A stretch of DNA of 64,000 nucleotides, taken from positions 930,001 through 994,000 of the forward strand of contig NZ_JADKSG010000002.1 of NCBI RefSeq assembly GCF_015350805.1. The letters run 5' to 3'. The position numbers and the translations under genes were made by a program. A model generated the notes under the pieces. The model did no database searches and was not told where the DNA came from. It saw nothing but the letters and a program-made list of their open reading frames with translations. This DNA is from Herbiconiux sp. VKM Ac-1786. Its GTDB lineage: Bacteria > Actinomycetota > Actinomycetes > Actinomycetales > Microbacteriaceae. Shown here in pieces: positions 44,067-51,230 of this stretch (position 1 is the first letter of the stretch; every line of letters starts with the position of its first letter).

Positions 44067-44900
44067 ATGCCCACACGTCTCGAGCGCAACATCGACCTCC
44101 TGCTGAGCGTTCACCGTCCGGCCGTGCTCGCGCACCTGCGCAGCATCCGCCGCCTGCACCCGAACGCCACGCCCGAGCAGCTGCTCGCGATCCTCGAGCG
44201 CCGCTACGTGGCCGCGGTGACGAGCGGCGGGGCGGCCGTCGGGGCGAGCGCGATGTTCCCCTTCGTGGGCACCGGGGTCTCGCTCGGCCTGTCGGCGGTC
44301 GAGACCGCGGGCTTCCTCGAGACCACGGCCCTGTTCGCCCAGTCGGTCACCGAGGTGCACGGCATCGCCGTCGACGACCCCGATCGTGCGCGGGCGCTCG
44401 TGATGACCCTGATCATGGGCAAGGCCGGGAGCGACCTGCTCAAGCAGATCGCGGGGCAGGCGACGGGTGGGCTCGGCCGCAACGCCTACTGGGGTCAGGT
44501 CGTCACCTCGAGCCTGCCGCAGTTCGTGGTGGGGCCGGTGGCCGATCAGGTGAAGAAGGTGTTCCTGCGGCGCTTCGCCATCGGGCAGGGCACGAACGCC
44601 GTCGGCCGCGCCATCCCGTTCGGGGTCGGCGCCGCGATCGGCGGGGTCGGCAACCTGATGCTCGGCCGCACGGTCATCCAGTCGGCGCGATCGGCGTTCG
44701 GGGCTCCGCCGATCACCTTCCCCGAGGCCCTCGCCATCACGATCAAGGCGCCGAAAGCCGCGAAGCCGGTCGAGGAGACCGCGCCGAGGAAGGGCGTGAA
44801 GCGCATCCTCCCCCGCCGCCGGCAGGCCGCCATCGAGGCCCCCGGGCCGCGGGGAGCCGGGCCGGAGAACGAAACCGGCGTGCCCGACATCCGCATCTAG
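44067..44900 (+). CDS. Membrane protein of unknown function
   Basis: A 277-residue protein with a soluble N-terminus (LERNIDLLLSVHRPAVLAHL), two hydrophobic Gly/Ala-rich regions (AVTSGGAAVGASAMFPFVGT; then around AIPFGVGAAIGGVGNLMLGR) and a basic, Pro-rich tail. EcsC-like proteins share such glycine-rich amphipathic helices, but I cannot assign it firmly. AGGAG lies 3 bases before ATG 44067, rather close. It is divergent from the acetolactate decarboxylase gene. Confidence 0.5.
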   Translation: MPTRLERNIDLLLSVHRPAVLAHLRSIRRLHPNATPEQLLAILERRYVAAVTSGGAAVGASAMFPFVGTGVSLGLSAVETAGFLETTALFAQSVTEVHGIAVDDPDRARALVMTLIMGKAGSDLLKQIAGQATGGLGRNAYWGQVVTSSLPQFVVGPVADQVKKVFLRRFAIGQGTNAVGRAIPFGVGAAIGGVGNLMLGRTVIQSARSAFGAPPITFPEALAITIKAPKAAKPVEETAPRKGVKRILPRRRQAAIEAPGPRGAGPENETGVPDIRI

Positions 44901-44962
44901 ACTCCTGTGCCCCACCTGGCAGTGGTAGCCTTGACTGCAATCGAGGGTATATAAGCGCAGTC

Positions 44963-44991
44963 AGTGGTTCGTCAGTCGAGTGGTTCGTCAG
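44963..44991 (+). repeat. Two 13-bp direct repeats, 16 bases apart, in the leader of the LAETG gene
   Basis: AGTGGTTCGTCAG occurs at 44963-44975 and 44979-44991, between a candidate promoter (TTGACT at about 44932, TATATAAG at about 44949) and the gene start at 45005. They may be binding sites for a regulator or act in mRNA stability. Confidence 0.6.
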
Positions 44992-45004
44992 CTAGGGGGT
45001 CGTC

Positions 45005-45226
45005 ATGAAGTACCGTGTCGCGGCCGCCGTGCTCGCCACGCTGGCCCTCCTCGGCTTCGGTTCGGCCGCCGCGTTCGCCGGCGATGACCACGAGGCCCGG
45101 CCCGTGCTCGCCGAGACCGGCTACGACTTCACGCCGATGCTCGTCACCGCGGCCGTCTTCCTCTTGATCGCGGGGGTCGCGGTCATCGTGGCGAAGTACT
45201 TCGTCGCCCGCACCGGCGCGCGCTAG
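45005..45226 (+). CDS. Mini cell-wall surface peptide with LAETG sorting signal
   Basis: A 73-residue exported peptide. Residues 1-25 form a signal peptide ending AAAFA; LAETG (35-39) fits the LAxTG sorting motif of class E sortases in actinobacteria; a hydrophobic helix (about 45-63) and a basic end (VARTGAR) complete the sorting signal. If both the signal peptidase and a sortase act, the wall-attached part would be about 13 residues (GDDHEARPVLAET), very short for such a substrate. GGGGGTCGTC precedes the ATG. No sortase gene is in the window. An untagged membrane peptide is the alternative. Confidence 0.6.
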   Translation: MKYRVAAAVLATLALLGFGSAAAFAGDDHEARPVLAETGYDFTPMLVTAAVFLLIAGVAVIVAKYFVARTGAR

Positions 45227-45237
45227 CGCCAACCCGC

Positions 45238-46518
45238 TCAGTCCCGCTCCTCGGCCTCGGCCTCGGTGTCACCCAGCGCGACCGGCTCGTCGCGCGCGTG
45301 CAGCGCCGCATTGCGCTCCCACTCCGCGAGCAGCTGCTCGATCGCCCCGTGGAACCGCGCCGTCGCCGCACCCGGCGTCGTGTCGCCGAAGTAGTGCCGC
45401 ACCCACCGCCCGAGCCGCACGCCGGCGGCCGAGTCGTGCGAGAGCTCGTCGAGCCGCGCCCGCACCTGCGGCGCCTGCTCGACCGTCAGCCACTCGCAGT
45501 CCGAGAGGTAGCCGCCCATGTCGATCTGGGCCTCGGGCGAGACCGGCCGTGTGATCAGCAGCGGCTTGCCGGTGGCGAGCCGGTCGTAGACCATCGCCGA
45601 GACGTCGACGATCGCGATGTCGGCCGCCGCCAGCTGCCAACCGAGCTCGGCACCCGTGTCGTGCACGTGCTGCGCCGACGGGTCGGCCCGGTTCGCCGCG
45701 GCGATCAGCTGCACGATCTCACGGTTCGCGGCCGCGTAGGGCGGGTCGAGCACGCCGCTCCGAGGGTGCGGCCGGTAGATCAGCCGGTGCGCGGGCGAGG
45801 CGAGCACGTCGCGCACGAGGGCCACGCCGTGCGAGGCGATCGAGCCGTAGGCCGCCGCCGCGCGGTCGCCCTCCCAGGTCGGCGCGTAGAGCACGACAGT
45901 GCGCTCGTCGGGTGTGAACGGCGTGCGACCCGAGTAGTGGTCGGCCTGGGGCCGCCCGATCGGGAGGGCCCGCTTGTCGAAGTCGAAGTCCCAGAGCACC
46001 CGCTGCAGTCGCGCGATGGCAGCGTCGCCGGCCACGAGGCTGTAGTCGTAGGCCTTGAACTGGTTGGTGGTCATGTACATCTTGTCGCTCTCACCGTGAT
46101 TGATGAACACGTGCCAGCGGCGGCCGTAGCGCATCATCTGGAAGTTGCGAGCGTTCTGGTTGACGTACAGCACGATCTTGAGCTCGTGCTCGCCGAGGAA
46201 GTCCTCGAGGTCGCGCACCGTGCGCACGTAGGCGACCGGCACCGGCGACTCCTCGAGCAGCGCACTCGTGCCCGCCGGGTTGCGGCTGAGGATCACGACG
46301 GGGTGGGTCTTGGCGAGCTCGGCCAGCGGCTCGTACCACTGCCGCAGCTGGTAGAGGTTCACCGGGCCGTCGGCGAAGTAGACGCCGATCTCGAACCGCC
46401 GGGTGGGCAGCGGGGCCCGCGACGCGAGCTGTCCGGCGAGCCGGCGGCGCACCGAGCGTGCTTTCACGAGGTCGCGGACGACGTTCCATCCGAGCTTCGC
46501 ATCGTTCAGCAGTCCCAC
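45238..46518 (-). CDS. CDP-glycerol glycerophosphotransferase-like (TagB/TagF) protein
   Basis: A 426-residue peripheral membrane enzyme of the CDP-glycerol glycerophosphotransferase family, which polymerises or primes teichoic-type wall polymers. VVLYAPTWEGDRAAAAYGS, LIYRPHPRSGVLDPPYAAAN and ADIAIVDVSAMVYDRLATGK with PLLITRP form the nucleotide-binding half; VFINHGESDKMYMTTNQFKA is also characteristic. The GTG start at 46518 follows TAGCCT by 7 bases. It is the last gene of the glycan cluster, 125 bases after the GT2 gene, and may form its own unit. Confidence 0.8.
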   Translation of the reverse strand: MGLLNDAKLGWNVVRDLVKARSVRRRLAGQLASRAPLPTRRFEIGVYFADGPVNLYQLRQWYEPLAELAKTHPVVILSRNPAGTSALLEESPVPVAYVRTVRDLEDFLGEHELKIVLYVNQNARNFQMMRYGRRWHVFINHGESDKMYMTTNQFKAYDYSLVAGDAAIARLQRVLWDFDFDKRALPIGRPQADHYSGRTPFTPDERTVVLYAPTWEGDRAAAAYGSIASHGVALVRDVLASPAHRLIYRPHPRSGVLDPPYAAANREIVQLIAAANRADPSAQHVHDTGAELGWQLAAADIAIVDVSAMVYDRLATGKPLLITRPVSPEAQIDMGGYLSDCEWLTVEQAPQVRARLDELSHDSAAGVRLGRWVRHYFGDTTPGAATARFHGAIEQLLAEWERNAALHARDEPVALGDTEAEAEERD

Positions 46519-46643
46519 CCGTCAAGGCTAACGACGGCCTCCGGGGCCACCCCCCGAATCGGGGCCTTCCGGGGTGTTCTTTAGGCAATCGTGACCTTCA
46601 TCACGTGTCGAGCGAGCGGATGCACGCACCGCCCGAGAGGCAC

Positions 46644-47498
46644 TCAGACGATCGGCGGCCGACCGGCCCGCGCCATCCGCAGCACGGTGCGCCACGACAT
46701 CGGCCGCCGCTCCCCCGCGTCGCTCCGCCAGCCCTCCGACCAGCCGCCGAACCAGGCCTTCAGCGCCGCCGGACGCCGCGCCCAGCGCAGCACCTGGATG
46801 CCCGTCCAGCTGCCCACGTACAGCGGCACCAGCACGGCCGGCAGGTTGCGCTTCGCGAGCCACACCCGGTTCCGCGCGTTCAGCCGGTAGTAGTACGAAT
46901 GCCGCGTCGGCTCGATGGCCGGGTGGTTCGCGACCAGCCCGCCCTCGTACCAGGTGCGGAGCCCCTGGTCCCAGACCCGCCAGGCGAGCTCGATGCCCTC
47001 GTGGGCGTAGATGAACGGCGCCGCCCAGCCGCCCGTGCGGTCGAAGACGGCCCGCGGCAGCAGTGTCGCACCCTCCCAGACCGAGAACACGGGGCCCGAC
47101 TCCTCGGGCGATCCCTTGCGGATGCGCGGCACCCACCGCCGCGGGTTCTCGCGCCCCTCGGGGTCGACCACCCGGGGCTGCAGCAGCCCGATCGACGGGT
47201 CGGCGCGCAGGAGCGCGATCGCGTCCGCGAGGAACGTGGCCGAGGGCAGCGAGGCGTCGTCGTCGAGGAAGAAGATGTACTCGCCCGTGACGACGGCCGC
47301 CCCGGCGTTGCGGCCGGCCGGGATGCCGACGTTCTCGGGCAGGGCGAGGGTTCGCAGCGCATCCGGAAGCCCCGTGGGCACCCAGCCGTTGCCGACGCAG
47401 ACGATGTCGAGGTCGACGCCCTGCTGGGCGAGCAGCGACTCGGCGCCGCGGAGGAGGTCGGCCGGACGCGTGCCCTGGGTGAGCAGCACGACGCCCAC
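46644..47498 (-). CDS. Glycosyltransferase family 2 (rhamnosyl/galactofuranosyl type)
   Basis: A GT2 enzyme of about 284 residues: the start GVVLLTQGTRPADLLRGAES, donor motif FFLDDDASLPSATFLADAIA, the acceptor-side IYAHEGIELAWRVWDQGLRT and SYYYRLNARNRVWLAKRNLP near a short membrane-facing end. GTG 47498 is the first in-frame start; a CTG at 47519 overlaps the stop of the phosphatidyltransferase gene in the same 4-base way seen elsewhere in this operon and may be the true start. It belongs to a three-gene unit with the CDP-alcohol enzyme and the upstream GT2. Confidence 0.75.
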   Translation of the reverse strand: MGVVLLTQGTRPADLLRGAESLLAQQGVDLDIVCVGNGWVPTGLPDALRTLALPENVGIPAGRNAGAAVVTGEYIFFLDDDASLPSATFLADAIALLRADPSIGLLQPRVVDPEGRENPRRWVPRIRKGSPEESGPVFSVWEGATLLPRAVFDRTGGWAAPFIYAHEGIELAWRVWDQGLRTWYEGGLVANHPAIEPTRHSYYYRLNARNRVWLAKRNLPAVLVPLYVGSWTGIQVLRWARRPAALKAWFGGWSEGWRSDAGERRPMSWRTVLRMARAGRPPIV

Positions 47499-47515
47499 GG
47501 TGGGGAGCCCGGTGC

Positions 47516-48328
47516 TCAGGAGCGCACCCGCTTGGAGGCCATGATCGCCACGAAGTGCCCCACCAGCGCGAGCAGCGACAGCGGCACCAGGGCGACGAGC
47601 AGGATGCGATCGGCGAGCACCCCGCCGATGAACAGCCCCACGACGGCGAACGCGAAGATCAGCATCGTCAGCTCGACCGAGTGGTAGAGGCGGTGGAACG
47701 GCACGAAGCGGGCGGCGCGGCGCAGGCGGGCGACGAGGGCCTGGGAGGGCTCGGACTCGCCCTTCTTGTCGGCCAGCTTGTCGAGCCCGGCGTTCGCGCG
47801 GGCGACGTGCACCATGTCGTTCAGCGCCTTGTTCAGCACGATGACGAGGGCCAGCAGGAGGCCGAGGGTCGTCCAGAGGAAGTCCTCGGGAGCCTCGAAC
47901 GGGTAGCCGGCGGCCCGGATGCCGAGAGCGATCGGGATGAGCGACTCGGTCGTGTAGTGCCCGACCTTGTCGAGGAAAACGCCCGCGGGCGAGGACGTGC
48001 GGCGCCAGCGCGCGACCTCGCCGTCGCAGCAGTCGACGAGCATCTGCAGCTGCCCCAGCACCAGGGCGAGGGCTGCTCCGCCGATGCCCGGCACGAGCAG
48101 CGCGGCCGCCGTGGCCCAGCCGGTGAGGATCATCAGGCCGGTGACGCCGTTGGCCGAGATGGAGGTCTTCAGCAGCATCCACGTGACGTAGGGCGAGAGG
48201 CGGCGCAGGTACAGCGACGCCGTCCAGTGCTCGGCGTTGCGGCGGCCGCGCACCTCGGGGGGCTGCGCGACGGCCTTGAGCTCGGCGATCGAGGTCGGCC
48301 GGGCGGAGGGGGCGTGGGGCACGGTCAC
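47516..48328 (-). CDS. CDP-alcohol phosphatidyltransferase family protein
   Basis: A 270-residue integral membrane enzyme of the CDP-alcohol phosphatidyltransferase type, with about six helices. The catalytic motif begins DCCDGEVARWRR and continues SSPAGVFLDKVGH: the usual pattern D-x2-D-G-x2-A-R-x8-G-x3-D-x3-D is kept except that the last aspartate is a histidine. That change may be specific to the subfamily or may alter the reaction. The GTG start at 48328 overlaps the preceding stop. In a glycan cluster it probably makes a lipid- or polyol-phosphate intermediate. Confidence 0.75.
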   Translation of the reverse strand: MTVPHAPSARPTSIAELKAVAQPPEVRGRRNAEHWTASLYLRRLSPYVTWMLLKTSISANGVTGLMILTGWATAAALLVPGIGGAALALVLGQLQMLVDCCDGEVARWRRTSSPAGVFLDKVGHYTTESLIPIALGIRAAGYPFEAPEDFLWTTLGLLLALVIVLNKALNDMVHVARANAGLDKLADKKGESEPSQALVARLRRAARFVPFHRLYHSVELTMLIFAFAVVGLFIGGVLADRILLVALVPLSLLALVGHFVAIMASKRVRS

Positions 48329-49437
48329 CTTCCCGTGTGCGCGGTGATGTTCTTCGTGAGCTTCAGGAATCCGAGGATGAAACCGAGGCCCCAGCTGAAA
48401 TGGATGCAGGGCAAGACTACGAGAAACCAGGCTCCCGCGCGTGCGCCCTGGCTGCGCGCGGCGCCGAGGGCCGCGACCGCGACGAAGACGAGGTAGACCA
48501 GCGGCACGACGAAGCCTGCCGTCAGCACGGCGCCGACGGTGCGGGCCGTGTCGGTGCCGGCATCGCTCGCCGGCTCGCCTCCCGCGACCGCGAGCGTGAC
48601 GAGCCCCGCGATGCCGAGCAGCAGGCCGAGCAGCGCGGCGGTGACCATCACCGGAGGCACGAAGTACTTCAGCGCGTTGGCCGTGAAGAAGCGGCGGGCG
48701 AGCTCGCCCCGCCAGAGCCCGGTCGAGAAGAACTGCCGCGCGAGACGCTCGAGCGAGGGCCGGGGCCGGTAGATCACCACGAGCCGGGGCGTGAACCAGA
48801 CCGTGCCGCCCCCCTCGCGGAGGCGCCGGTTGAGCTCCCAGTCCTGGCCGCGTCGGATGTCCTCGTTGAACAGGCCGACCTTCGCCAGCCACTCGCGCTG
48901 GAACACCCCGAGGTAGACCGTCTCGGCCGGCCCTTCGACGCCGCCGACGTGGTGCGCCCCGCCGCCGAGCCCGGCCTTGGAGCCGTAGGCGTGGGCGACG
49001 GCCCGTTCGAACGCTGTCGTGCCCTCGGCCTTCATGATGCCGCCGACGTTCGCCGCGTCGGTGCGCAGCAGCGCCTCGACCGCGACCCGGGTGTAGTCGC
49101 GCGGCAGCAGCGAGTGGGCGTCGACCCGCACGACCACGGGGTAGCGCGAGGCGCCGATGGCGACGTTCAGCCCGCTGGGGGTCGACCCCGTGGGGTTCTC
49201 GATCACCCGGATGCGCGGGTCGACCGCCGACAGCCGCTCCACCAGCTCGGTGGTGCCGTCGATCGAGGGGCCGAGGGCGACGATGACGTCGAAGGGGCCG
49301 GCGTAGTCCTGGTCGAGCAGGCTCGCGATCGCGGCCTCGACGTGGGTGACCTCGTTCAGCACGGGCATCACGTAGGAGACGCCCGGCAGGCCGGGGTCGG
49401 CATGCTCGGGCGCCGCGGGGCCTGAGGGGTCGGTCAT
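48325..49437 (-). CDS. Glycosyltransferase family 2 with C-terminal membrane helices
   Basis: A 370-residue GT2 enzyme like those of exopolysaccharide clusters: VSYVMPVLNEVTHVEAAIAS, the donor motif VVRVDAHSLLPRDYTRVAVE, YLGVFQREWLAKVGLFNEDI and the acceptor motif RRGQDWELNRRLREGGGTVW, then three or four membrane helices in the last 130 residues. ATG 49437 begins the conserved part; an upstream in-frame start is preceded by no ribosome site. It is the first gene of the cluster and overlaps the next by 4 bases. Confidence 0.8.
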   Translation of the reverse strand: MTDPSGPAAPEHADPGLPGVSYVMPVLNEVTHVEAAIASLLDQDYAGPFDVIVALGPSIDGTTELVERLSAVDPRIRVIENPTGSTPSGLNVAIGASRYPVVVRVDAHSLLPRDYTRVAVEALLRTDAANVGGIMKAEGTTAFERAVAHAYGSKAGLGGGAHHVGGVEGPAETVYLGVFQREWLAKVGLFNEDIRRGQDWELNRRLREGGGTVWFTPRLVVIYRPRPSLERLARQFFSTGLWRGELARRFFTANALKYFVPPVMVTAALLGLLLGIAGLVTLAVAGGEPASDAGTDTARTVGAVLTAGFVVPLVYLVFVAVAALGAARSQGARAGAWFLVVLPCIHFSWGLGFILGFLKLTKNITAHTGR

Positions 49438-49562
49438 CGCATCCGCTCGTCGATCGTGGTGCAGGTCGCGCCGCCCACGACGACGGAAGGCCCGCCGCCG
49501 CTTCACAGCGACGACGAGCCTATCAGCCGGGTGTTCGGCAGCTGGGAGGAGGGGCGGATGCC

Positions 49563-51230
<1,668 letters not shown>

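Follow-up and report, generated by a model that had tools for sequence, protein, structure and literature searches.

A 73-residue LAxTG protein of Herbiconiux with a conserved sorting tail and a variable cargo, a candidate minimal substrate of the class E sortase

In the genome of Herbiconiux sp. VKM Ac-1786, a stretch of 64,000 nucleotides was analysed, which is referred to here as the window. It contains a small gene, called the mini gene in the following, which is located downstream of a gene designated up277 and is followed by a convergent gene for a glycerophosphotransferase-like protein. The features of this locus are:

44067..44900, plus strand: up277, the upstream neighbour, no Pfam or NCBIfam assignment above cut-off
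44923..44931, plus strand: TGGTAGCCT, extended -10-like element (TGnTAnnnT), putative own promoter, based on the ortholog alignment
44993..44999, plus strand: ribosome-binding site TAGGGGG, with a comparable purine-rich site ahead of the start codon in 15/15 orthologs
45005..45226, plus strand: whole open reading frame of the mini LAxTG protein, 73 amino acids and stop codon, based on the frame and its orthologs
45005..45079, plus strand: predicted Sec signal peptide, residues 1-25, ending in AAAFA, with presumed cleavage
45080..45106, plus strand: GDDHEARPV, residues 26-34, a short acidic cargo of variable sequence and length as judged by pN/pS, net charge and the ortholog stretches
45107..45121, plus strand: LAETG, class E sorting motif, L, A, T and G invariant in 23/23 homologs
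45122..45139, plus strand: YDFTPM, juxtamembrane segment directly past the predicted scissile bond, pN = 0.000 in 15 orthologs
45140..45193, plus strand: predicted membrane helix LVTAAVFLLIAGVAVIVA, pN/pS 0.27 over 16 helix codons
45194..45223, plus strand: cytoplasmic end KYFVARTGAR with K64, R69 and R73, read from the sequence
45238..46518, minus strand: convergent downstream neighbour, CDP-glycerol glycerophosphotransferase-like (PF04464), assigned by profile match

The product of the mini gene thus consists of MKYRVAAAVLATLALLGFGSAAAFA, GDDHEARPV, LAETG, YDFTPM, LVTAAVFLLIAGVAVIVA and KYFVARTGAR, in this order. An earlier note on this DNA had described a 73-residue precursor with a signal peptide, LAETG, a hydrophobic helix and a basic end, and exactly this arrangement was read at the locus, with a basic end that is thin. 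The helix is clear, and it is followed by three spaced basic residues (K64, R69 and R73) with no adjacent basic pair. The mini protein thereby differs from the sorting signals of PMC13251363, for which, in the available part, two adjacent basic residues are used as a criterion. The positions A22, A23 and A25 of the signal peptide are invariant in the 15-row alignment; cleavage by signal peptidase I would occur after Ala25, as suggested by inspection for an AxA pattern. By inspection, an AxA-type signal peptide is also present in the 15 orthologs of the genus. The order LAxTG, helix and basic end occurs in no other open reading frame of the window and was found in none of 60 first-order Markov windows of equal length, by criteria chosen post hoc, when the protein had already been seen.

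Upstream of the start codon, the TGnTAnnnT element is present exactly once within 150 bases of the start in 15/15 orthologs, at a nearly fixed position 34-36 bases past the conserved block which ends up277. This single element at a near-constant spacing from the end of up277 suggests that the mini gene probably has its own promoter. Just 5' of the start, a 13-base direct repeat, AGTGGTTCGTCAG, is present in two copies with a 3-base spacer (44963-44991); for most orthologs of the alignment, no such repeat is apparent. On the basis of the orthologs, the ribosome-binding site, the upstream element and the dominance of synonymous change in the C-terminal half of the protein, the 73-residue frame is a real gene.

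Orthologs of the mini gene were identified in 15 of the 16 genomes of the genus. The missing case, G009, is an 88% complete assembly of 1110 contigs, for which the search for a class E sortase was negative as well. The closest named relatives are from Herbiconiux, with a protein from H. gentiana being 94% identical over 67 matched residues. The loci L004-L012 largely overlap with the genomes of the G set and are therefore not independent samples. With a profile of the 15 orthologs, matches at E up to 0.01 were obtained in 58 of 398 genomes of the family. The strong matches outside the genus are one in G040 (1.7e-25) and those in seven genomes of a group designated g77 (4.6e-12 to 1.2e-9), so that 23 homologs were counted (15 + 1 + 7). 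The remaining matches, some of which were read, are mostly long open frames. G074 (L070) encodes a small LAQTG protein of 94 residues with a signal peptide and a hydrophilic tail past the helix (E 3.1e-8), which was excluded from the homolog count. At the level of the order, a search of 396 genomes with the alignment A2 gave the gene of the window as the sole strong match; the matches in 25 other genomes had E > 1e-6, were mostly located in long frames and are probably ordinary sorting signals.

The order up277, mini gene and glycerophosphotransferase gene is conserved in 9/9 Herbiconiux-type loci. For up277, matches were found in 226 of 299 Microbacteriaceae genomes, and 70 of its loci were read, comprising the 30 best-scoring ones and 40 picked by hand to spread genera. 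A mini LAxTG gene is located beside up277 in 12 of these (seven from the genus, g1, one from g26 and four from g77), while 57 have no mini gene within 1.2-2.1 kb downstream; one of the 57, L215, is from a g77 genome with the mini gene about 2 kb away. A match in L222 was dropped, being on the opposite strand and within a 487-residue frame. Among the small hydrophobic frames on the up277 strand of the 70 loci, no convincing case of a relative with the helix and no LAxTG was identified; the extra frames in L198, L226, L230 and L243 were judged to be unlike a short one-helix protein. Most simply, a few genera have either acquired or retained the mini gene in the space that separates two older genes. 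The region from 45238 to 51230 resembles a wall-polymer cluster, with the glycerophosphotransferase gene, two GT2 genes and a CDP-alcohol phosphatidyltransferase gene, and adjoins a gene for a trypsin/PDZ protease. For the GT2 and CDP-alcohol genes of this cluster, no matches were obtained in L006, L010 and L012.

The distribution of nucleotide changes along the gene is uneven. For the 15 orthologs, pN/pS was 0.90-0.91 in the 10 codons before the motif and 0.20 in LAxTG, while it was 0.76 for the entire stretch before the motif. In YDFTPM, pN was 0.00 and pS 0.31, which means that codons change and residues never do. From the motif on, pN/pS was 0.25 in the genus and 0.16 in g77. Among all 23 homologs the motif LAxTG is retained, with only X varying (E, Q, A or D); the earlier note had suggested a search for relatives with a conserved LAxTG as a check. 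Loss of LAETG with retention of the helix, which it had named as a refuting case, was not found in these homologs, nor was there a convincing case in the 70 up277 loci. The cargo, for which the cut sites were picked by eye, is represented by 13 distinct stretches among the 15 orthologs, 8-20 residues in length before the motif (12-24 with LAxT). All 13 distinct stretches have a net charge of -1 to -3, showing that the cargo is not wholly free, and the proline two residues before LAxTG is invariant in the orthologs.

As the main control, an ordinary LAxTG protein of 671 amino acids was compared with the mini protein in the same 8 genomes; its orthologs were matched in 12 of the 16 genomes, of which 8 were used, leaving out G009 and weaker matches. 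In the six codons after TG, pN/pS was 1.26 for the control versus 0.00 for the mini gene, in the helix it was 0.36 versus 0.22, and from LAxTG to +35 it was 0.58 versus 0.25. The outer part of the control is also loose (0.79, with 0.61 for its ten codons before the motif), so that what sets the mini gene apart is its tight tail and less so its loose cargo. When the six residues after TG were compared with those of five control proteins, the mini protein was the more conserved one in 28 out of 34 genome pairs, equally conserved in 6 and less conserved in none; the 34 pairs are non-independent, with 28 of them coming from the 671-residue control alone and the others from four smaller control groups.

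The homologs from g77 are proteins of about 52 residues with neither a signal peptide nor a cargo, and read MFARFTEITPVSTT-LADTGVAFVPMLVAAAV... Their start was taken to be MF(A/T)R, in line with the ATG of L063, and an N-out topology was assumed for these leaderless forms. LAxTGxxFxPML and the helix are kept in 12/12 rows of A2, four of which are from g77. The g77 gene is located between up277 and the glycerophosphotransferase gene in G091, G288, G204 and G249, and, by eye, also in G351, while that of G153 is about 2 kb away from up277 on its far side. Since they occupy the same gap, the g77 genes are probably positional homologs of the mini gene. Unlike in Herbiconiux, constraint within g77 extends to the 10 residues preceding the motif (pN/pS 0.26), which tells against a completely free N-tail. 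GTTAC-type direct repeats, for example GTTACACACTTGTTAC in L064, are present 5' of the leaderless g77 genes in L063-L069 and are perhaps the site of a regulator.

None of the curated LAxTG/LPxTG models reaches its cut-off on the mini protein. The scores were 22.3 bits for NF041528 (cut-off 30), 20.7 bits for NF058582 (cut-off 27) and 12.0 bits for TIGR01167 (cut-off 15.9); the G040 homolog passes TIGR01167 with 19.0 bits. In the Pfam and NCBIfam scans nothing was above cut-off, and the highest-scoring Pfam matches, to Phage_holin_3_6 (15.7 bits, cut-off 28.4) and CbiN (14.3 bits, cut-off 25), look like chance matches to the helix. PF00746 was too noisy on the own genome, with 23 matches at E up to 10 and matches in 13 of 14 control genomes as well, and was replaced by LAxTG-specific models. 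Six other matches to the LAVTG model were identified in the genome; of five tails read, four contain LAxTG and one LGSTG. Among 63 distinct tails of long LAxTG proteins, a set which was collected with sorting-signal models and A1/A2, filtered for basic ends and is thereby biased towards typical tails, the residue seen most often past TG is D for position +2 (19 tails), P for +5 (25) and L for +7 (26). Exactly these three residues occupy the corresponding positions of the mini protein.

Known substrates of class E sortases, like the Streptomyces chaplins ChpA-C (described in the accessible part of PMC5148588) and the proteins covered by NF041528 (strep_LAETG) and NF058582 (Microco_LAVTG), share with the mini protein the LAxTG motif, the helix and a basic end, which is thin in the mini protein, and many ordinary tails have the same D at +2 and P at +5. 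The mini protein differs from them in having almost no cargo and in scoring below the cut-offs of the models, and from the control substrates in the stronger conservation of the six residues after TG. Small LAXTG proteins are an already named kind: NF058583 (LAXTG_small_WW, "LAXTG motif-containing small protein") has 54 positions and, judged from the model name, its length and the matched stretch, describes a similarly tiny protein made up mostly of LAXTG and a helix, to which the leaderless g77 form is similar in layout. The mini protein, with 15.5 bits at a cut-off of 65, is not a member; it has no tryptophan in the helix, and in Herbiconiux a signal peptide is present. In view of this named kind, the statement of the earlier note that it knew of no such tiny anchored peptide family has to be qualified. 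NF058583 was above cut-off in 0 of 299 Microbacteriaceae genomes. In the literature, no paper treating small LAXTG proteins as a group of their own was noticed among the titles and abstract beginnings of the matches listed, and no paper was found which joins LAXTG with Microbacteriaceae or Herbiconiux with sortase.

A class E sortase, the presence of which had been proposed as a check and the absence of which as a refuting case, is encoded in the own genome (NF033747, 230.5 bits, cut-off 160). It passes the cut-off in 15 of 16 genomes of the genus and in 8/8 genomes outside the genus which contain the mini gene. Since class E sortases may be near universal in the family, their presence is consistent with a role for the mini protein as substrate but is weak evidence. 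In an alignment with SrtE1 from S. coelicolor, residues of the enzyme match His251, Cys320, Arg329 and Tyr229, the latter located by counting back from His251. Tyr229 of SrtE1 was proposed to be the reader of the alanine in LAXTG, and in vitro SrtE1 preferred an LAETG peptide over LPETG, as stated in the part of PMC5148588 that was available. The sortase gene and the mini gene are located on different contigs and are unlinked. The genome also encodes a class C sortase (173.1 bits, cut-off 160), which in L002 (about 1396-2040) is a 215-residue frame covering only the C-terminal half of the model (profile positions 108-220) and may be truncated or interrupted, and a class F-like sortase with 121.9 bits, below the cut-off of 166.

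In the reading which we prefer, and to which we give an even chance, the mini protein serves the class E sortase as a minimal substrate with almost no cargo, which would be processed and valued for its recognition or processing or for the remaining membrane stub. The protein would be exported by Sec and cut by signal peptidase I after AAAFA. It would then remain anchored in the membrane, its short acidic N-tail projecting outwards, its LAETG lying at the membrane face and its basic end pointing inwards. SrtE would cut between T and G and join a peptide of about 13 residues to a wall precursor, while a stub consisting of GYDFTPM and the helix would stay in the membrane. Selection would act on the recognition and primed-side segment (LAxTG-YDFTPM) and on the helix. 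This constraint suggests that the useful event is most likely the engagement of or the processing by the sortase, or the stub itself, and not a specific 13-residue peptide; with tag and helix conserved while the outer peptide and even the export signal are variable, the tag seems to be what matters. Occupancy of the sortase, signalling by the C-peptide and an acidic wall cap which is indifferent to sequence are possible uses. For Streptococcus gordonii, a stub derived from an adhesin was reported to act on a histidine kinase in sortase C-peptide signalling (Hall et al. 2019, in the part of PMC11502775 that could be consulted). By analogy, activity could reside in the stub left after cleavage of the mini protein, and the conservation of the helix would then be accounted for. 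The two systems differ in that the S. gordonii stub comes from an adhesin and no kinase is tied to the mini gene.

It is possible, though rather unlikely, that the mini protein is instead an uncleaved membrane microprotein, in which LAxTGxxFxPML serves as a juxtamembrane docking site for another membrane protein and resembles a sorting signal by inheritance or incidentally. The g77 proteins, which lack the signal peptide but retain the segment and the helix and may be plain membrane proteins, would fit this view, as would the restriction of conservation to the helix and the juxtamembrane residues, the weak basic end and the sub-threshold scores of the sorting-signal models. However, variation within the pentapeptide is restricted to X, a pattern expected of recognition by a sortase, the residues past TG match those of ordinary LAxTG tails, and SrtE accompanies the mini gene in all eight genomes outside the genus.

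That the short acidic peptide on the wall is itself the functional product, serving as a decoration, a signal or a decoy, appears unlikely. The uniformly negative net charge of the cargo stretches, the invariant proline and the presence of a signal peptide in the 15 genus orthologs are in its favour, but the cargo codons are nearly neutral (0.91), the number of residues before the motif varies from 8 to 20, and the N-tail of g77 is leaderless and not acidic in the same way. With near-neutral cargo and a differing N-tail in g77, only an acidic cap indifferent to sequence would survive. That the 13 residues, which the earlier note had given as the possible mature part, are the conserved and functional product was thus not borne out, given the pN/pS of about 0.9 in the preceding codons, the length of 12-24 residues and the g77 forms with no signal peptide and a different N-tail.

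Quite improbable, in our estimate, is a role as a decoy or governor, by which an abundant minimal substrate would compete with large LAxTG proteins for SrtE and set their loading. The strongest constraint does fall on the sortase-facing residues, and the six other LAVTG-model matches of the genome, four of them with an LAxTG tail, could be such competitors; no pattern of copy number or linkage towards the sortase was seen, however, and by sequence this role is inseparable from that of a minimal processed substrate. A decaying remnant of a larger sortase substrate which has lost its domain would account for the tiny cargo and the leaderless g77 forms, but is scarcely credible in view of the purifying selection which acts from the motif onwards in the genus (0.25) as well as in g77 (0.16) and of the conserved ribosome-binding site, promoter-like element and gene order.

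Other tiny frames with LAxTG and a helix were noted, with start codons of our choice. Family B comprises tiny leaderless LAxTG proteins, for example MTFASELASTGANGQIALIIGGIAVAVLLVGGIVLFVARRRRSNNG, from four Herbiconiux genomes, with a pN/pS of 0.24 for four sequences (L144 and L145, about 435-623; L146, about 444-623; L149, about 339-620); the neighbouring genes are presumably involved in menaquinone synthesis. In family C, with two sequences (L150, about 399-683; L151, about 267-698), only Met-Glu precedes LAQTG (MELAQTG...), followed by the helix and a hydrophilic tail; a nearby gene is one which we take to code for a Clp-type ATPase. In the g57 family (L074, L075 and L108), LAxTG is located a few residues from the apparent N-terminus, with no signal peptide, and is followed by the helix and then by a cytoplasmic tail which is long and acidic. 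The g57 gene of L074 is divergent from a gene whose product starts with MADSSFDVVSKVDKM and which we assume to be YajQ-like. A WW-type protein near NF058583 scored 35.9 bits, below the cut-off of 65. For families B, C and g57, pN/pS was 0.22-0.25 (4, 2 and 3 sequences). We put forward, as a doubtful generalisation, that Microbacteriaceae produce sortase substrates with no cargo, which serve for the sortase reaction as such, be it occupancy of SrtE, capping of wall precursors or C-peptide signalling, and that at least five sequence-distinct families, several of them with no signal peptide, are separate inventions.

Sortase signals are usually taken as address labels for a cargo, whereas in the mini gene conservation concerns the label and not the cargo. 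If the stubs are not processed, the LAxTG motif alone would be a poor guide to surface proteins in the genomes containing the mini gene. If they are processed, there would be sortase substrates which exist for the reaction or for the leftover membrane peptide, and sortase load and C-peptide signalling would become testable in soil actinobacteria.
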